From the NCBI GenBank assembly GCA_946186575.1, contig CAMHNO010000013.1, forward strand, positions 1 to 59,948: a stretch of 59,948 bases of DNA, written 5' to 3'. The DNA comes from an uncultured Prevotellaceae bacterium. GTDB lineage: Bacteria > Bacteroidota > Bacteroidia > Bacteroidales > Muribaculaceae. Of this stretch, positions 5,097 to 30,967 are shown in pieces (within the stretch, counting starts at the first letter, position 1; each line of letters begins with the position of its first letter). A program made the translations under genes and the position numbers. Below the pieces are notes generated by a model. It saw nothing but the letters and a program-made list of their open reading frames with translations, searched no databases and was not told the DNA's origin.

Positions 5097-6191
5097 ATGA
5101 GCATGGCAAAAACAAGCGACAATATTACTCTCGACCAAGAGGGGATGGAAATCCAGAACGACTTCAGCGACCCTGATTTCACCGAGAATGGTCGCGACTA
5201 CTGGGAGCACTACCACTATGTGGTGGAGCCAGGGCACGTGCTGCTGCGCATCGACAAGTACTTGGTAGAGCGCATCAAGGGCACGTCGCGCAATCGCATT
5301 CAGAATGCTGCCGAGGCGCAGTGCATCCGTGTGAACGGACGTGCCGTGAAGAGCAACTACCGTGTGCATCCTGGCGACGAGATTTCGGTGGTGATGGACC
5401 GGCCGCGCTACGAGAATGAGATTATCGCTCAAGACATTCCGCTAAACATCGTCTACGAGGACGATGACCTGCTGGTGGTGAACAAGCCTGCTGGGATGTG
5501 TGTTCATCCTGGTCATGGCAACTACGACGGCACACTGGTCAACGCACTGGCATGGCATTTCAAGGACAATCCAAATTATGATGTCACCGACCCGCGCATG
5601 GGGCTGGTGCATCGCATCGACAAGGACACCAGTGGCCTGCTGGTGGTGGCTAAGACACCCGATGCCAAGACCTCGCTGGGACTGCAATTCTTCAACAAGA
5701 CCACCAAGCGCCAGTACATTGCAGTGGTGTGGGGAGTGATGAAGCAGCTCGACGGCACCATCGAGGGCAACATAGGGCGCAGCCTGCGCGACCGCTTGCA
5801 GATGGCAGTTTTCCCCGATGGCGACCAGGGCAAGCATGCCGTCACTCATTATCACACCATCGAGAACCTCAACCACGTGGCAGTGGTGCAGTGCCAACTC
5901 GAGACGGGCCGCACCCACCAGATTAGGGTGCACATGCGGCACATTGGGCATCCGCTCTTCAACGACGAGCGTTATGGTGGCGACAAAATACTGCGTGGCA
6001 ACACCTCGTCGAGCTATGCTCAGTTCATCCAAAACTGCTTTAAGACCTGTCCGCGTCAAGCCTTGCATGCCAAGACGCTTGGCTTCGTCCACCCCCGCAC
6101 TGGCCAGCAAATGGATTTTGACAGCGAGCTACCCGAGGATATGGCAGCCCTAATCAAACGCTGGGAAGCGTTTGTGTTAAGTGGTAAGTAG
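5097..6191 (+). CDS. rluD: RluD-type 23S rRNA pseudouridine synthase
   Basis: This RluD/RluA-family enzyme isomerises specific uridines in 23S rRNA. It has an N-terminal S4 RNA-binding domain (about residues 55-115, 'RIDKYLVERIKG'). The catalytic domain has motif 'HRIDKDTSGLL' (catalytic Asp in RIDKDTSG) and the later 'ETGRTHQIRVHM' motif. At 364 residues it is of usual length. The first ATG (5097) sits against a terminator hairpin, so the ATG at 5145, preceded by AGAGGGG, may be the true start; conserved sequence begins only after that point. The last codons and the stop (…LSGK, TAG at 6189-6191) lie inside a 7-nt tandem array. Confidence 0.9.
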   Translation: MSMAKTSDNITLDQEGMEIQNDFSDPDFTENGRDYWEHYHYVVEPGHVLLRIDKYLVERIKGTSRNRIQNAAEAQCIRVNGRAVKSNYRVHPGDEISVVMDRPRYENEIIAQDIPLNIVYEDDDLLVVNKPAGMCVHPGHGNYDGTLVNALAWHFKDNPNYDVTDPRMGLVHRIDKDTSGLLVVAKTPDAKTSLGLQFFNKTTKRQYIAVVWGVMKQLDGTIEGNIGRSLRDRLQMAVFPDGDQGKHAVTHYHTIENLNHVAVVQCQLETGRTHQIRVHMRHIGHPLFNDERYGGDKILRGNTSSSYAQFIQNCFKTCPRQALHAKTLGFVHPRTGQQMDFDSELPEDMAALIKRWEAFVLSGK

Positions 6192-6281
6192 TAAGTGTTA
6201 AGTAGTAAGTGTTAAGTAGTAAGTGTTAAGTAGTAAGTGTTAAGTAGTAAGTGTTAAGTAGTAAGTAGTAAGTAGTAAGTG
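6174..6281 (+). repeat. 7-nt tandem array, left arm around the four-helix-bundle gene
   Basis: About 15 units of TAAGTNN (NN = GT, AG or GG) run from inside the rluD C-terminus to 6281. The pattern alternates TAAGTAG and TAAGTGT. The first five bases are constant and the last two vary. The mirrored array lies at 6696-6770. Confidence 0.9.
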
Positions 6282-6300
6282 GCGTGAACGCTTTAACCCT

Positions 6301-6660
6301 TTAAGTTTTTCTCATCTTTTCCTTCATTGAGTTGATGATTGATTTTAGAATTTTTATCAACTCAATGCAATCTTCTTGAAGGGAATCATATTGTTGTGTT
6401 GTAATTAAATCAGATCTCCATAATAAGTCCAGCCAGTATTCTGTTTCATTAGCTTCTTTAAGGGCTATTGAAAGTTTGTGAATGAAATCACTGTCACTCT
6501 CAGAGCATTCAGACTCTGCCACATTAGCCCCTATTGAAGTTCCACAACGTAGAATCTGCTTGCCAATATCAAAAGCTTTTTTGTCAATTAAAAAGCGATA
6601 TAATTTAATTATCCTAAGTGCAAAATCTCTTGATTTAATACGCTTGGCATCAAGTTCCAT
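6301..6660 (-). CDS. Four-helix-bundle protein of the 23S rRNA IVP / Avd-like family
   Basis: This 119-residue helical protein has the family signature 'RCGTSIGANVAES', then 'DFIHKLSIALKEANETEYW'. It belongs to the group named after ORFs in 23S rRNA intervening sequences (TIGR02436/PF05635), which also includes the Avd subunit of diversity-generating retroelements. No reverse transcriptase or rRNA is nearby. Known relatives are basic pentamers that bind nucleic acid. The gene is much more AT-rich than its neighbours and sits between oppositely oriented 7-nt arrays in the convergent gap between rluD and the dehydrogenase gene. That suggests it arrived with, or acts on, those repeats. Its cellular role is unknown. 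Confidence 0.88.
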   Translation of the reverse strand: MELDAKRIKSRDFALRIIKLYRFLIDKKAFDIGKQILRCGTSIGANVAESECSESDSDFIHKLSIALKEANETEYWLDLLWRSDLITTQQYDSLQEDCIELIKILKSIINSMKEKMRKT

Positions 6661-6695
6661 GAAATTAAGTCTTAATTATTTTTCGAAGAAAAAAT

Positions 6696-6770
6696 ACTTA
6701 CTACTTAACACTTAACACTTAACACTTAACACTTAACACTTAACACTTAACACTTACAACTTACCACTTA
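6696..6770 (-). repeat. 7-nt tandem array, right arm around the four-helix-bundle gene
   Basis: About ten units run here. On the minus strand they read TAAGTGG, TAAGTTG, TAAGTGT (repeated) and TAAGTAG. The array is inverted relative to 6174-6281 and starts in the TAA stop codon of the minus-strand gene ending at 6768. Confidence 0.9.
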
Positions 6771-8078
6771 TTTCCCGATACAGTAATAGGTGAATCCCAT
6801 CGATTCGAGCTCTGGGCCGTCGTAGATGTTGCGTCCGTCGATTACTAAGGGTGCCTTCATCAGCTCTTTTACCCTGTCCCACGATGGCACGCGGAACTGG
6901 CGCCACTCGGTCACGAGCATCACAGCGTCGGCCTTGGTCACCGCATCATAAATGTCGAGAGCGCAATAGATGTCGTTCCAGCGGAATTTGATGGCATTCA
7001 TGGCCACGGGGTCGTAGACACGCACGTGGCAGCCTGCCTGCAGCAGCAAGTCGATGGTGGTGATTGCCGGCGACTCGCGAATGTCGTCGGTGTTGGGCTT
7101 GAACGACAATCCCCACAGAGCCACAGTCTTGCCCTTGATGTCGCCACCGTAGTAGTCTCTGAATTTCTCGAACAGGCGGTGCTTCTGCCGCTTGTTGACC
7201 TTGTCAACGGCCTTGAGCACCTCCATCGAGTAGCCGTTTTTCTCGCCAATGTTGATGAGGTCGTTGATGTCCTTGGGGAACAACGTTCCGCCATAGCCAC
7301 AGCCCGGATAGATGTACTTGGGACCAATGCGGCTGTCGGTGCCCACACCATGCCGCACGGTGTTGATGTCGGCTCCCACTATCTCACACAGGTTGGCGAT
7401 CTCGTTCATGAAGCTCACGCGCGTGGCAAGCATCGAGGTGGCGGCATATTTTATCATCTCGGCAGTGGTCGAGTCGGTGTAAATCACAGGGAAATACTTG
7501 AACTTGAGCGGATGATACAGTGTGTCCATGGCTTTGCGCGAGCGCTCGTTGTCCACACCCAAGATGATGCGGTCGGGCTTCATGAAGTTCTTTATGGCAT
7601 TGCCCTCGGTCAGGAAGTCGGGGTTCGACACCACATCGAAGTCAAATTCCGCCTGACGCTTGTCGAGTATGTCCTTGATGTGCTCTTTAATTTTTTTTGA
7701 AGTGCCTAATGGGACGGTCGACTTGATGATAAACACTGCATATTTGTTGATGCTTTGAGCAAACTGCGTGGCGGTTTCAACCACTTGGCTCAGGTCGGTG
7801 CCGCCGTCTTGAGCTGGAGGGGTGTCGACCGCGCAAAACACATAGTCAACATTATCAAACACATTGGCAAAGTTGCTGGTGAAATTCAGTCTACCAGCAG
7901 CTACCGAGCGCTTCACCATGTCGTCAAGGCCTTGCTCATAGATGGGCAGTCCGCCATAAAGCAGAAGGTTGATTTTGCGTGCGTCAGAGTCGACGCATGT
8001 CACATTGACTCCCAGGTCGGCAAAGCAAGCGCCTGTCACGAGTCCGGCATATCCTGTTCCAACGATAAGTATATTCAT
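6768..8078 (-). CDS. UDP-glucose 6-dehydrogenase family protein with altered catalytic motif
   Basis: Members of this family oxidise UDP-glucose twice with NAD+ to UDP-glucuronate for capsule and glycan synthesis. The 436-residue protein has the N-terminal NAD-binding motif 'GTGYAGLVTGACFADLG'. It also has the central helical domain ('GVGTDSRIGPKYIYPG') and the C-terminal UDP-binding domain ('GLSFKPNTDDIRESPA'). The nucleophile motif is GYGGTLFPKD where the family normally has GGSCFPKD, so the catalytic Cys is Leu (TTG codon). A Cys five residues earlier (PGCGYGG) is common in relatives and is not the nucleophile. It may stop at an intermediate, act on another substrate, or be inactive. A consensus promoter lies upstream at 8111-8142. 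Confidence 0.85.
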   Translation of the reverse strand: MNILIVGTGYAGLVTGACFADLGVNVTCVDSDARKINLLLYGGLPIYEQGLDDMVKRSVAAGRLNFTSNFANVFDNVDYVFCAVDTPPAQDGGTDLSQVVETATQFAQSINKYAVFIIKSTVPLGTSKKIKEHIKDILDKRQAEFDFDVVSNPDFLTEGNAIKNFMKPDRIILGVDNERSRKAMDTLYHPLKFKYFPVIYTDSTTAEMIKYAATSMLATRVSFMNEIANLCEIVGADINTVRHGVGTDSRIGPKYIYPGCGYGGTLFPKDINDLINIGEKNGYSMEVLKAVDKVNKRQKHRLFEKFRDYYGGDIKGKTVALWGLSFKPNTDDIRESPAITTIDLLLQAGCHVRVYDPVAMNAIKFRWNDIYCALDIYDAVTKADAVMLVTEWRQFRVPSWDRVKELMKAPLVIDGRNIYDGPELESMGFTYYCIGK

Positions 8079-8273: not shown

Positions 8274-9878
8274 ATGCAAGAAAACTACAACCCTGCAAGT
8301 CATGAATATGACGTAATAATAATAGGCGGCGGCATCACTGGGGCTGGCACGGCACGCGATTGCGCGCTCAGAGGTCTGAAAGTGCTGCTTGTGGAGCGCT
8401 ACGACTTCACCCACGGTGCCACAGGCCGCAATCACGGCTTGATGCACAGTGGTGCTCGCTATGCTGTGACCGACCAGGAGAGCGCTGAAGAGTGCATAGG
8501 CGAGAACATGATACTGCGGCAAATTGCACGTCACTGCATCGAGGAGACCGACGGGCTTTTTGTTACCCTGCCCGACGACGACCTCGATTATCAGACCACC
8601 TTTGTCGACGCTTGCCTGAGGGCGGGAATCAACGCCGAGGTAATCGATCCGGCTTGGGCGCGCGTGATAGAGCCATCGGTCAACCCCACGCTCATTGGAG
8701 CTGTGCGAGTTCCCGACGCCTCGATCGACCCCTTTACTCTCACAACTGCTAATCTGATAGACGCACGCCGTCATGGAGCAGTTGCTCTCACCTATCACGA
8801 GGTGACGGGGCTGATAGTGGAGAATGCATGCGTCATTGGCGTGAAGCTGCGCAACAACCTCAATGGCGAGACAACCGAGGCCTATGCACCTGTCACTGTG
8901 AACGCTGCCGGCATTTGGGGCACGCTCATTGCCAAGCAAGCTGGAATTGTGATCAACATGTTTCCTGCCAAGGGCTCGTTGCTCATCTTTGGCCATCGCA
9001 TCAATAACATGGTGCTCAACCGCTGCCGCAAGCCTGCCAACGGCGACATACTTGTGCCCGATAAAATTGTGAGCATGCTTGGAACCACCAGTGACCGAGT
9101 GCCCATCACTCAAATCGACGACATGCACGTCACACCTGCCGAGGTGGAAATTCTCTTGAACGAGGGAGTGCACCTTGTGCCTGCTCTTGCCAAGACAAAA
9201 ATCATGCGTGCCTATGCTGGCGTGCGGCCTCTGGTGGCGAGCGACGACGATCCCACCGGGCGCAGCATCAGTCGCGGCATTGTGTGCCTTGACCATAAAG
9301 AGCGCGACGGCATGGATGGCTTTGTCACCATCACTGGTGGCAAACTCATGACTTATCGTCTCATGGCCGAGCGAGCCACCGACCTCGTGTGCAAGAAACT
9401 CAACAAGGTTGGGGCTTGCACCACAGCCATCTTGCCACTGCCAGGAAGCGATGAGAAGCTCCCCAAGAAGCGCAGCAACCAGCACGCAGTAACCCAAAAG
9501 GCAGCGCAGGAGCGTCATGGATCGCTCACTAAGGAGATAAAGGAGAAAAGCTCAGAAGACAAAGCCATGGTGTGTGAATGTGAGCACGCCAGCGTGGGCG
9601 AGATGAAATATGCCATCGAGAAGCTGCATGTTAACAATCTCACCAATCTGCGCCGTCGCACACGCATGGGCATGGGCTCGTGTCAGGGCAAGCTGTGTGC
9701 ATGCCGCGCCGCATCGCTGCTATGCAAGGCTGGTATCAACGACCAGAGTGTGCTGGATGACCTGTCCGCGTTCATGAACGAGCGCTGGAAGGGAATGCGC
9801 CCGGTGGCATGGGGCTCGACGCTGAGCGAGGGCCAGCTCATCAATCTGATTTATGAGGGCTTGTGTGGACTGAAATAG
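8274..9878 (+). CDS. glpA: Anaerobic glycerol-3-phosphate dehydrogenase subunit A
   Basis: The product oxidises sn-glycerol-3-phosphate to dihydroxyacetone phosphate with FAD and passes electrons to the membrane through the B/C subunits. The 534-residue protein has the FAD dinucleotide motif GGGITGAG (about residues 18-25) and the GlpA/GlpD signature 'GATGRNHGLMHSGARYAV'. Its C-terminal BFD-like domain has four cysteines (about C434, C436, C470 and C475) in the spacing of a [2Fe-2S] cluster. The domain order matches GlpA rather than aerobic GlpD. The stop codon TAG opens directly into a repeat array that separates it from glpB. Confidence 0.93.
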   Translation: MQENYNPASHEYDVIIIGGGITGAGTARDCALRGLKVLLVERYDFTHGATGRNHGLMHSGARYAVTDQESAEECIGENMILRQIARHCIEETDGLFVTLPDDDLDYQTTFVDACLRAGINAEVIDPAWARVIEPSVNPTLIGAVRVPDASIDPFTLTTANLIDARRHGAVALTYHEVTGLIVENACVIGVKLRNNLNGETTEAYAPVTVNAAGIWGTLIAKQAGIVINMFPAKGSLLIFGHRINNMVLNRCRKPANGDILVPDKIVSMLGTTSDRVPITQIDDMHVTPAEVEILLNEGVHLVPALAKTKIMRAYAGVRPLVASDDDPTGRSISRGIVCLDHKERDGMDGFVTITGGKLMTYRLMAERATDLVCKKLNKVGACTTAILPLPGSDEKLPKKRSNQHAVTQKAAQERHGSLTKEIKEKSSEDKAMVCECEHASVGEMKYAIEKLHVNNLTNLRRRTRMGMGSCQGKLCACRAASLLCKAGINDQSVLDDLSAFMNERWKGMRPVAWGSTLSEGQLINLIYEGLCGLK

Positions 9879-10072
9879 TTAAGAGTTCATAGTTGATAGT
9901 TTATAGTTATGAAAGAGAGACCACAAAACAAAATGACAACAAACTCCTAACTCCTAACTCAAAACTCCTAACTCTTAACTCTTAACTCTTAACTATCAAC
10001 TCATAACTCTTAACTCATAACTCTTAACTCATAACTCAAAACTCTTAACTTTTAACTCTTAGCTCTTAACTA
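9876..10072 (+). repeat. 7-nt tandem array filling the glpA-glpB gap
   Basis: From the glpA stop codon the sequence reads as degenerate AGTTNNT units (TAGTTAAGAGTTCATAGTTG…) to about 9910. After a roughly 40-nt spacer it becomes about 18 units of AACTCNN (NN = CT, TT, AT or AA) from 9951 to the base before the glpB ATG. The first part is roughly the inverse of the second. Both contain TAA or TAG in the sense strand. Confidence 0.85.
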
Positions 10073-11314
10073 ATGAAATTTGACATTATAGTGATAGGAG
10101 GTGGTCTTAGTGCCATCATGTGTGGAATAGCACTCGCCACCAATGGCAAGCGTGTGGCGCTCATGGTCAAAGGGCAGAGCAAACTCAACTTCAACTCTGG
10201 CTCTATCGACTTGCTGGGCTATGACCTGCAAGGCAACGAAGTTGAAAACCCGCTTGAGGTGATACCCTCGCTTGGCGAGAGTCATCCTTACACCAAGATG
10301 GGCATCTCTAACGTGCTTCACAACGTGGCAATGGCACCTGTGATCCTGAATGGCGCAGGGCTAAGCTTCTATGGCGACACGAGCAACAAGAACCACTACC
10401 GCATGACTCCAGTGGGTGTGCTCAAGCCAGCTTGGCTCACACTCGATAACTATTTCACTACCGACCACGACTACACGCTGCCGTGGGAGAGGATTGCCGT
10501 GGTGAGTCTGCAGGGGTTCCTTGACTTCCCCGCCGACTTTGTAGCAGCGGCATTAACCCGACTTGGTGCCGACTGTCACCTGTGTGACATTAAGTTGGGC
10601 ACCATCGACAAGCTCAGCGGCAGCCCCACGGTGATGCGCTCCACGGCAGTGGCAAAACTCATGCAGAACGATGGTGTGCTTCACGACCTGGCGCGCAAGG
10701 TGCGTTCTGCCATGGGTGATGCCCAGGTGGTGGTGATGCCGGCTGTCTTTGGCCTTGACGGTGATGACACTGCCGCAAAGATAGCCCACCATGTTAAGGC
10801 ACCAGTGAAGTTGGTGTCCACTTTGCCACCATGCATCGCCGGTTCGCTCATGCTCTCGAAGTTGCGTCGCCTTTTTGTGCAGAACGGAGGCACTTTCTTG
10901 CTTGGCAGCATGGTCAAGAAAGGCAAGATTGTGGATGGCCGCGTGGTGAGTGTTGAGGCCAAGAATTTCCCCGATCAGGACATTGAGGCCGACCACTTTG
11001 TGCTTGCAACAGGTTCGTTCATGAGCGGAGGATTGATGTCGAGCCCATCAGGAATAAAGGAGCCCATCTTCGATCTTGATGTTGACTGCAGCGGCAAGGT
11101 GGGAGAGTGGAGCCGCGAGAAGCTGTTTGATGCTCAGCCCTACATGGAGTTTGGTGTCAAGACCGACAATGAGTTCCATGCCGTCAAGGACGGAAAGATC
11201 ATTGAGAACCTCTATGCCATAGGCTCAATACTCAGCGGCCACAACAGCATCAAGCTCGCCGACGACACAGGCGTTGCCGTAATGACTGCCCTGCAAGTGG
11301 CAAGGCAGATTTAG
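10073..11314 (+). CDS. glpB: Anaerobic glycerol-3-phosphate dehydrogenase subunit B
   Basis: This 413-residue flavoprotein subunit has an N-terminal FAD motif ('DIIVIGGGLSAIMCGIALA') and the GlpB-typical 'NFNSGSIDLLGYD' stretch. The C-terminal segment 'NLYAIGSILSGHN' is also typical. It works with GlpA and normally with the iron-sulfur membrane subunit GlpC in anaerobic glycerol-3-phosphate oxidation. No glpC follows; the next gene is ispF on the other strand. The start ATG directly follows one repeat array, and the stop TAG opens another at 11312. Confidence 0.92.
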   Translation: MKFDIIVIGGGLSAIMCGIALATNGKRVALMVKGQSKLNFNSGSIDLLGYDLQGNEVENPLEVIPSLGESHPYTKMGISNVLHNVAMAPVILNGAGLSFYGDTSNKNHYRMTPVGVLKPAWLTLDNYFTTDHDYTLPWERIAVVSLQGFLDFPADFVAAALTRLGADCHLCDIKLGTIDKLSGSPTVMRSTAVAKLMQNDGVLHDLARKVRSAMGDAQVVVMPAVFGLDGDDTAAKIAHHVKAPVKLVSTLPPCIAGSLMLSKLRRLFVQNGGTFLLGSMVKKGKIVDGRVVSVEAKNFPDQDIEADHFVLATGSFMSGGLMSSPSGIKEPIFDLDVDCSGKVGEWSREKLFDAQPYMEFGVKTDNEFHAVKDGKIIENLYAIGSILSGHNSIKLADDTGVAVMTALQVARQI

Positions 11315-11432
11315 GATAGGAGTGGATAGGAATAGCTATGAAAAGCTAAGAATAACTAAGAATAACTAAGAATAACTAAGAATAGCTATGAATAACTAAG
11401 AATAACTAAGAATAGGTAGGAATAGCTGAGAG
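11312..11432 (+). repeat. 10-nt tandem array after glpB
   Basis: Units of GAATAACTAA, with variants GAATAGCTAT and GAATAGGTAG, repeat about ten times. They start with degenerate copies in the glpB stop codon (TAGGATAGGAG…). The period is 10, not 7. It lies between convergent glpB and ispF. Confidence 0.9.
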
Positions 11433-11454: not shown

Positions 11455-11925
11455 CTAAATTATTAGTGCCACAGCATGAGCGGCTATGCCTTCGCCTCGG
11501 CCAGTGTAGCCCAAGCGCTCGGTAGTGGTGGCTTTGATTGACACTTGCGATGGGTCGCACTGCATGCACTCAGCCAGTTGCTGTTGCATGGCAGGAATGT
11601 GCGGGTTCATCTTTGGTGCCTCGGCACAGATGGTGATGTCGCAGTTCCCTAATTTATATCCTTTTTGATTGAGCAGTTTCATTACTTCCCTCAACAGCAA
11701 GCGGCTGTCGATGCCCTTGTAGCGTGGGTCGCTGTCGGGGAAGTGGTAGCCTATGTCGCGCAGTGCGGCAGCACCCAGCAAGGCGTCGCACAGGGCATGA
11801 ATTGCCACGTCGGCATCGCTGTGGCCCAGCAGCCCCTTGTTGTTCTCAATCTTAACTCCGCCTATCCATAGCTCTCTGCCCTCTACCAGGCGGTGCACGT
11901 CAAATCCGTATCCAATGCGCATCAT
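11455..11925 (-). CDS. ispF: 2-C-methyl-D-erythritol 2,4-cyclodiphosphate synthase
   Basis: This is the fifth enzyme of the MEP isoprenoid pathway. It cyclises CDP-methylerythritol 2-phosphate to the 2,4-cyclodiphosphate with release of CMP. The 156-residue length is typical of the trimer subunit. Metal ligands are visible in 'GFDVHRL' (Asp, His) and 'GHSDADV' (His). The signatures '[10 protein letters not shown]' and '[20 protein letters not shown]' are intact. Two adjacent ATGs (11925 and 11922) are possible starts. The gene lies downstream of porV on the same strand, an order I recall from Porphyromonas as well. dxr and ispE are elsewhere in the window. Confidence 0.96.
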
Positions 11926-28959: not shown

Positions 28960-29280
28960 TTAAGTAGTAAGTAGTAAGTAGTAAGTAGTAAGTGGTAAGT
29001 AGTAAGTGGTAAGTAGTAAGTGGTAAGTGGTAAGTGGTAAGTAGTAAGTAGTAAGTAGTAAGTAGTAAGTAGTAAGTAGTAAGTGAGAGCTCATAACCCA
29101 CAACTCACGACTCATAACTCTTAACTCCTAACTCCTAACTCATAACTCTTAACTCCTAACTCATAACTTTTAACTCATAACTCTTAACTCATAACTCTTA
29201 ACTCATAACTCTTAACTCATAACTCATAACTCATAACTCTTAACTCATAACTCATAACTCATAACTCATAACTCAAAAAC
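28960..29280 (+). repeat. Composite 7-nt tandem array between rseP and the RlmI-like gene
   Basis: The 333-nt gap is almost entirely repeat. From 28960 to about 29083 it is TAAGTNN (NN = AG or GG), the type found next to rluD. From about 29084 to 29276 it is AACTCNN (NN = TT, AT, CT or AA), the type found between glpA and glpB. The array ends within a few bases of the ATG at 29282. No promoter or terminator of normal form is visible, so expression of the downstream gene must pass through it or start inside it. Confidence 0.92.
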
Positions 29281-30594: not shown

Positions 30595-30967
30595 TAACGT
30601 GAGTTCGACGAAAATAAACATCTGTGTATCAGGCTGCTCCTCTAAGATAGAGGAGCAGTACTCCTCCTCTGCCTGAGAGGAGGTGCCCTTTAGGGCGGAG
30701 GAGAGGGAGTGCGACCCTCAGGAGTGTGATTATCATCAAAGGCTGGCACACTCCCCCCCTGCCCCCTCTAACTTAGAGGGGGAGCTGCTAACGCAATGGC
30801 TTTAGATAAAATGCTCACGCTCGCAAGGTTTTTTAGCGAGCTAAAACTTTGTCTCGCTAAATCGCATTTTTGGATAAAATGCTCACGCTCGCAAGGTTTT
30901 GAACAAGTTCAAACTTTGTCTCGCTAAATCGCATTTTTCAGGGAAGAAATTCGTCGAACTCACGTTA
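30595..30967. mobile_element. MITE-like inverted-repeat element, copy B (373 bp)
   Basis: Perfect 18-bp terminal inverted repeats (TAACGTGAGTTCGACGAA at 30595-30612, complement at 30950-30967) match those of copy A except for one base, changed on both ends. The core hairpin chain is that of copy A in reverse orientation. Copy B also holds two roughly 67-bp direct repeats (30805-30871 and 30873-30938). No ORF is present. Confidence 0.65.
30805..30938. repeat. Duplicated hairpin module inside element B
   Basis: Two tandem modules share their flanks (GATAAAATGCTCACGCTCGC… and …CTTTGTCTCGCTAAATCGCA) but differ in the centre. The centres are TTTTAGCGAGCTAAAA and TTTGAACAAGTTCAAA; both fold on themselves. 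The outer AAAATGC/GCATTTT arms also pair. Confidence 0.75.

Follow-up and report, generated by a model that had tools for sequence, protein, structure and literature searches.

A four-helix-bundle gene between inverted arrays of a 7-nt repeat as a probable mobile insertion unit in Muribaculaceae and other bacteria

Our analysis of a 59,948-nt stretch of DNA from an uncultured Prevotellaceae bacterium placed by GTDB in the Muribaculaceae (contig CAMHNO010000013.1 of assembly GCA_946186575.1; this whole stretch is the window below) suggests that a block at about positions 6174–6770 is, very probably, a discrete mobile insertion unit, with inverted arrays of a 7-nt repeat as its ends and a single gene for a four-helix-bundle (FHB) protein between them. 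The left array (6178–6281, plus strand) consists of about 15 inward-facing TAAGTNN units in a 14-nt register, TAAGTGTTAAGTAG, as seen in the sequence itself, by Tandem Repeats Finder (TRF; period 14, score 187) and by our own array finder (score 80). The right array (about 6696–6770, minus strand) holds about 10 units that read ACTTANN on the plus strand, and was recognised in the sequence, by TRF (6703–6770, period 7, 9.7 copies, score 115) and from its pairing in an RNA fold. The sole open reading frame (ORF) of at least 80 aa between the arrays is the FHB gene (6301–6660, minus strand, 119 aa), whose product matches FHB-type families only, namely PF05635 (E 1.6e-28, 99.4 bits for a cut-off of 33.8) and TIGR02436 (E 2.9e-33, 114.4 bits for a cut-off of 24); structures of relatives have already been solved (2gsc, 2rld). 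On either side lie two convergent genes identified by domain matches, an rluD-like pseudouridine synthase gene (S4 and PseudoU_synth_2; 5097–6191, plus strand) and a ugd-like gene for a UDP-glucose/GDP-mannose dehydrogenase (6768–8078, minus strand), and the outer array edges overlap the stop codons of both. The first-pass annotation had given these coordinates, this family, the facing TAAGTNN arrays and the position between convergent genes, all of which sequence, TRF and profile matches bear out. Folded as RNA, the element forms a single long stem that encloses the gene, with the left array paired to the right one (-188.5 kcal/mol vs a shuffle mean of -114.2, z -12.3).

Two FHB genes of the window's genome score above the PF05635 cut-off, the window copy and a second copy (G000:C56) that repeats the layout with a different unit (GAAGTAG / CTACTTC), and for this reason we do not regard the layout in the window as chance. 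In the genus, where TIGR02436 is matched in 91 of 101 genomes, arrays of period 7 or 14 (score at least 16, within 350 bp of the gene) were found on both sides of 30 of 70 FHB genes, compared with 1 of 252 control ORFs (at least 100 codons each, from 20 stretches of same-genus genomes), and on at least one side of 48 of the 70. The 70 genes are mostly top-scoring family matches and no random draw; a duplicate of the window (L001) and two loci with short flanks (L046 and L062) were dropped from this count, and weak PF05635 matches below the cut-off (L003–L006) were excluded from array counts. The latter have no 7-nt flanking arrays, and one-sided 8–10 nt arrays occur at L004–L006. The control figure is slightly conservative, because one control stretch (L093) itself contains a gene of the GxxExxY family (see below), and several FHB genes that score zero under the period-7/14 rule are flanked, on a partial reading of their flanks, by inverted 6- or 8-nt arrays. 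Enrichment of flanking arrays had been set beforehand as the check on which the idea of a cassette with inverted termini could fall; the enrichment is present, the idea is not refuted, and the observation is real and general beyond the coordinates of the window.

The two flanks of an FHB gene also match each other. When the upstream flank was aligned to the reverse complement of the downstream flank, a threshold score of 16 was reached by 59 of 71 FHB genes of the genus vs 7 of 253 control genes (250-bp flanks for the FHB counts, with genes of identical protein removed; 300-bp flanks for the controls). The same threshold was reached by 54 of 89 FHB genes in 80 loci of a named genome collection (48 of the 79 loci scored), by 12 of 30 FHB genes in other Bacteroidota families and by 5 of 10 on plasmids. 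Matched arms scored above arms mismatched between elements in every group (Mann–Whitney U test; genus p 1e-36, named loci p 1e-40, phylum p 2e-11, plasmids p 1.5e-3), so that each element has, for the most part, a unit of its own.

Among 130 FHB elements the best period was 7 in 96 and 8 in 14, with 15 showing no clear period, and the upstream arm contained more G than C in 116. Named loci that pass the threshold include, by the taxa in their records, Bacteroidota, Verrucomicrobia, Planctomycetota, Acidobacteria, Clostridia, Selenomonadales, Betaproteobacteria, Paludibacterium, Chloroploca, Cloacimonadota, Omnitrophota and candidate-phyla bacteria, with a single locus behind several of the groups. 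Outside Bacteroidota and the cyanobacterial plasmids, pairing inverted arms were seen in about nine more phyla (per record names); on plasmids of Nostoc, Pseudanabaena and Picosynechococcus, arrays flank FHB genes as well. The arms themselves can differ widely: a Planctomycetota locus (L202) has very long GC-rich arms, CGGTGGA (about 180 bp) and ACCGTCC (about 240 bp), around its FHB gene, and a Muribaculaceae locus (L137) has 9-nt and not 7-nt arrays on both sides. As for position, the upstream arm has its outer end at most 25 nt from the stop codon of an ORF heading toward it in 51 of 59 deduplicated genus elements, vs 62 of 229 random intergenic points of the control stretches; by this comparison, such units tend to be placed where the gene upstream of FHB has its stop codon.

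Empty and occupied versions of one site were found on cyanobacterial plasmids that are about 97% identical. Next to a TrbI/VirB10 gene, four records (L307, L308, L309, L317) have a 13-bp repeat-free gap where two others carry arrays and an FHB gene (L213, +428 bp; L310, +414 bp). The 84-base empty site of L308 is matched in L213 by 41 bases to the left of the insertion and by 48 to its right, which yields a 5-bp duplication, GTAAT, that includes the stop codon. The repeat unit is absent from the empty site, and so it arrived with the element. At the same site a Nostoc plasmid (L311) has a relic made of one array and the 5' part of the FHB gene, and a further plasmid site (TraM|hyp) is empty in some copies, carries FHB in others and also occurs with gene-less inverted pairs of two kinds. 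Nostoc plasmids L315 and L316 carry gene-less inverted array pairs where other plasmids carry FHB, possibly as non-autonomous forms; comparison thus shows relics and gene-less array pairs at cassette sites. FHB cassettes were also seen within CRISPR operons, between cas10 and cmr3 in Picosynechococcus (L216) and between cas6 and cas4 in Pseudanabaena (L208). For each of these sites one relative plasmid was found, and it lacks the cassette; by inspection the empty cas10|cmr3 relative has no such array, and the empty cas6|cas4 relative has a short repeat of its own.

That last repeat would fit a different view, in which the arrays pre-exist as slippage expansions or intergenic hairpins and FHB homes in on them, the arrays being the target. 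So would the fact that TAAGT falls on the stop codon of each neighbour in G049 and similar relatives, the presence at cassette sites of inverted pairs with no gene (L315, L316, L223) and the commonness of gene-less arrays in the window's genome (42 of 50 stand alone, as described below). Entry into an ordinary array would, however, leave the same orientation on both sides and not an inverted one, the nearly identical empty sites lack the unit, and the same unit accompanies the same protein to different sites, and we consider homing into existing arrays quite unlikely. The notion that the unit is copied from the target arose from the TAAGT at either stop codon beside the window element; the empty sites on plasmids, which have no unit, rule it out as something that holds generally.

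An insertion unit that brings its own arrays is also what the comparison of different sites points to. On plasmid2 of Aulosira laxa, an FHB element related to that of L213 lies between different genes (82% over 416 nt), and the likeness spans the arrays and the gene and ends there. Within the genus, unit similarity between elements at different sites (no blastn match at 1e-8 between outer flanks) averages 0.41 at a protein identity of at least 0.70 (n=47) and 0.20–0.22 below 0.45, while for same-site pairs it is 0.72 at an identity of at least 0.70 (n=73) and 0.31 at 0.55–0.70 (n=86). Unit similarity tracks protein identity, which means that the unit moves about and diverges along with its protein. 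Comparison of loci shows that such units insert whole, with their arrays, and occur with the same unit at unrelated sites. The first-pass annotation is in this way supported in part, a protein that recognises, spreads or maintains the arrays being a possibility and its cassette reading being upheld by the enrichment, by the matching of the arms, by the empty and occupied sites with their 5-bp duplication and by the presence of the same element at different sites.

The site in the window was compared with 30 rluD loci of the genus (the window included), in 12 of which ugd adjoins; these were classed by inspection. FHB and TAAGTNN arrays, visibly different in length, were present in three (the window, G051 and G071), and both were missing in five, among them G090, whose RluD is 95% identical and whose gap measures just 4 bp. 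The other four hold a relic with surviving fragments (G031), a minimal inverted pair of 1–2 units (G049), heptamer-like sequence in degenerate form (G019) and a 10-nt-like repeat (G063). Cassette and arrays therefore come and go largely together at this site, and short gene-less array remnants exist.

At a second site of the genus, pyrG|yidC (30 loci, by inspection), five loci have FHB, 11 have an ORF of another family and one has a remnant of that ORF; the rest are empty with no evident arrays (six, with gaps of 1–37 bp) or have short or indistinct repeat remnants (seven). Two of the other-family ORFs were tested and proved to be GxxExxY proteins (TIGR04256; PF13366, of the PD-(D/E)XK nuclease superfamily), and our own GxxExxY profile matches 10 of the 11. 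Pairing arms flank 34 of 38 GxxExxY genes of the genus, with a tandem structure weaker than that of FHB elements (period 8–9 nt in 10 of 34, none clear in 22 of 34), and none of the four GxxExxY copies in the scanned stretches of the window's genome was called as an array pair. Medians of matched and mismatched GxxExxY pairs differ; only 4 of 28 matched pairs, and 1 of 10 at pyrG-site loci, lie above the 95th percentile of the mismatched ones, because GxxExxY copies share arms. Elsewhere, all seven loci of one set (L058, L064, L065, L066, L069, L071 and L075) have FHB elements with TTTAGAG/TTTAGGG units beside a tRNA-Met (cat) gene, and this flank is apparently a second insertion hotspot.

As to how such a unit might move, the two arms would pair, as cruciform DNA or as an RNA hairpin, and a ring of FHB protein would recognise its element's own arms once paired and hand them to a cutting enzyme that acts in trans; after insertion, the arms would grow and shrink by gain and loss of units. 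The FHB relative XCC0516 (2gsc) is described as a homopentameric ring (PMC4990558, PMC10053308). The best candidate for the cutting enzyme would be GxxExxY, which has cassettes of its own, and a host enzyme may serve instead. This reading of the block is, as an overall explanation, likely in our judgement; the particular division of labour, with recognition by FHB and cutting by an enzyme acting in trans, is possible and rather doubtful. Among 197 Bacteroidota genomes, 92 have both families, 60 FHB alone, eight GxxExxY alone and 37 neither (p 2.8e-7), and the mean number of FHB matches is 7.3 with GxxExxY vs 3.1 without it (p 2e-10; 10 of 5000 in a within-family permutation), in counts that admit all family matches at E <= 0.001, down to the weak ones. 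This correlation fits co-operation between the two, and could alternatively mark genomes permissive to both. GxxExxY as an absolute requirement was rejected, a match being lacking in 60 of the 152 FHB-positive genomes. MacGregor describes similar distributions for TAACTGA repeats and XisH/XisI (PMC4679880); XisH (PF08814) was tried as a further lead and dropped, with two matches in 18 plasmid records and flanking arrays at neither. Nor do phages appear as carriers, one FHB query having no match at E 1e-3 in 50,697 phage records.

The RNA fold invites a further alternative, namely that an Avd-like FHB protein brings the hairpin RNA to a reverse transcriptase acting in trans, and PF05635 does resemble Avd (PMC10053308). 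No match to RVT_1 (PF00078) was found, however, in 23 of 43 genomes with at least eight FHB matches, nor in the window's genome (94.8% complete), and the mean number of FHB copies is 5.6 both with and without RVT_1. The element seems able to do without an RVT_1 reverse transcriptase, and retro-mobility as a whole, for which an enzyme outside RVT_1 or one since lost could still be invoked, we regard as very unlikely.

Selection on the FHB gene bears on another alternative, that of a locus that serves its host, in which the arms would be terminators or RNase III substrates, FHB would have a cellular role and mobility would reflect rare recombination. Of 15 pairs, 13 allowed dN/dS to be computed, with values of 0.04–0.154, and hence purifying selection, in eight, the majority; in the remaining five, with 1–6 changes each, it was 0 (twice), 0.25, 0.86 or undefined. 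The window gene and its same-site relative in G051 give 0.04 at a dS of 1.45, and this purifying selection, together with insertion at gene ends and the long stem, speaks for a host function. Patchy presence is harder to reconcile with it: there are empty sites and relics, a GxxExxY cassette replaces FHB at pyrG|yidC, and insertion is clean, with a target duplication. The family, matched in 153 of 198 sampled Bacteroidota genomes, also reaches as many as 16 matches per genome. A host-serving locus is, all in all, unlikely.

The mobile-unit reading itself has to be weighed against a number of our own results. Purifying selection at the window site exceeds what would be expected of a mere relic, and may point to a benefit for the host. 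Only 12 of 30 FHB genes in the wider Bacteroidota sample pass the arm threshold, and 31 of 79 named loci fail it. The GTAAT duplication is clean in the L213–L308 comparison only, with single-base flank differences spoiling the count in L307, L309 and L317; the ends at TraM|hyp do not align cleanly, and the empty relatives at cas10|cmr3 and cas6|cas4 are too diverged for a target duplication to be read. On the side of the mechanism, GxxExxY is not strictly needed, since three of the 43 FHB-rich genomes, with 8–9 matches each (G142, G197 and G243), have neither it nor RVT_1, and the copy counts behind the correlation take in weak matches, which in the window's genome make up four of six PF05635 matches and have no 7-nt arrays. 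The FHB proteins show no marked basicity (median net charge +1 in 200 proteins, 0 for the window copy), which argues against simple electrostatic binding, and no catalytic motif was recognised in FHB, in the course of work that included no search aimed at one.

The last of these points comes from the arrays of the window's genome at large. In 1.20 Mb of it we found 50 intergenic arrays of period 6–10 (one stretch, L408, which overlaps L381, was omitted), and 42 of the 50 are solo, several of them of period 10 and some of them long and regular; the idea that an array is a constant mark of a cassette is not borne out. The scan gave four inverted pairs, two with FHB and two gene-less. Solo arrays could be products in trans of the FHB-array system or short tandem arrays of some other source. 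Inspection of the window also revealed a gene-less pair that the automatic pair scan had missed, in which a short AGTT-type array (9874–9909, plus strand) is separated by a spacer of about 30 nt from an AACTCTT array (9942–10071, minus strand); it is possibly a gene-less relative of the element. Likewise missed by the pair scan and seen by TRF are two back-to-back gene-less arrays, TAAGTAG at 28961–29084 followed on the other strand by an AACTCAT-type array at 29090–29275, whose units differ from each other. Apart from these, a 10-nt tandem array, GAATAACTAA, at 11314–11431 adjoins an ispF gene (11455–11925), 10-nt arrays such as TAGTNATTCA recur solo elsewhere in the window's genome, and a 67-nt repeat is present in two copies, 90% matching, at 30801–30938.

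Known systems share single traits with the element in the window. In REP/RAYT systems, repetitive extragenic palindromes (REP) are dispersed as short intergenic repeats, and a few source genes are flanked by inverted copies of them. The window gene, in contrast, encodes FHB and no Y1 transposase (its matches are to FHB-type families only), and its ends are multi-unit arrays. With classical insertion sequences the element shares inverted ends and a 5-bp duplication (GTAAT), which could be read on plasmids at a single site and could not be read in the window, but no transposase lies within it. Gene-less inverted pairs at cassette sites (two sites) look non-autonomous, as miniature inverted-repeat transposable elements do, yet no parental transposase was found, and the coding versions encode FHB or GxxExxY. 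The Avd protein of diversity-generating retroelements is a related four-helix-bundle protein (PMC10053308); those retroelements differ in that the window's genome has no RVT_1 match, template and variable repeats not having been searched for. Without a transposase, a place in rRNA or a reverse transcriptase, the element falls outside the known kinds considered.

Dispersed heptamer arrays have been described before, as TAACTGA in Beggiatoaceae, Cyanobacteria and Bacteroidetes (PMC4679880) and as GGGAATC in Xanthomonas and Nostoc, with 70 convergent inverted pairs in X. campestris (PMC4692102), and the sections of both papers available to us give no mechanism of spread; further heptamer families are reported for Geobacter and by a prokaryotic satellite survey (PMC2700814, PMC6749651). 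As far as those sections go, these arrays resemble ours in their period of 7, their largely intergenic position and the sometimes convergent inverted pairs, and TAACTGA is found, as TCAGTTA, among the units that flank FHB. The main text of PMC4679880 and PMC4692102 mentions neither a helix bundle nor S23. Our literature search, which took in few subscription journals and no preprints, returned no description of an array-bounded FHB or GxxExxY element among the matches listed; the literature has the pieces, intervening sequences (IVS) with S23p and heptamers on the one hand and heptamer arrays on the other, with no link between them. The present comparison gives a widespread FHB family of little-known function a concrete setting, as the gene of a mobile element, and offers a testable source for heptamer arrays earlier described with no mechanism, tying them to rRNA intervening sequences. 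Should FHB recognise a unit that differs between elements, it would amount to a small repeat-recognition system that varies in nature, and what moves the element would be a new enzyme to look for.

The nearest relative is the rRNA IVS. In the 23S rRNA IVS of Coxiella burnetii, as described in PMC4990558, an S23p ORF lies within a 28-bp terminal stem, tandem heptamers (GACAGAT) precede the ORF, and the element is called selfish. An ORF of the S23p/FHB family within terminal inverted repeats is thus common to both; but the IVS lies inside an rRNA gene and the window element between rluD-like and ugd genes (Rfam gave no rRNA match in the 20 of the 80 named loci that were tested), and here both arms are built of tandem units that vary between elements. 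RNase III excises an IVS from its transcript; for the window element a long stem is predicted. The rRNA IVS is possibly a branch of the same class, and we tentatively suggest, as a proposal somewhat short of an even chance, a new class present in about ten phyla, whose ends would be inverted arrays of a lineage-private 6–9 nt unit, which would be moved by a non-catalytic FHB ring together with a separate GxxExxY nuclease, which would be the source of dispersed heptamer arrays in Bacteroidota, cyanobacteria and others, and of which the rRNA IVS would be the rRNA-resident branch.

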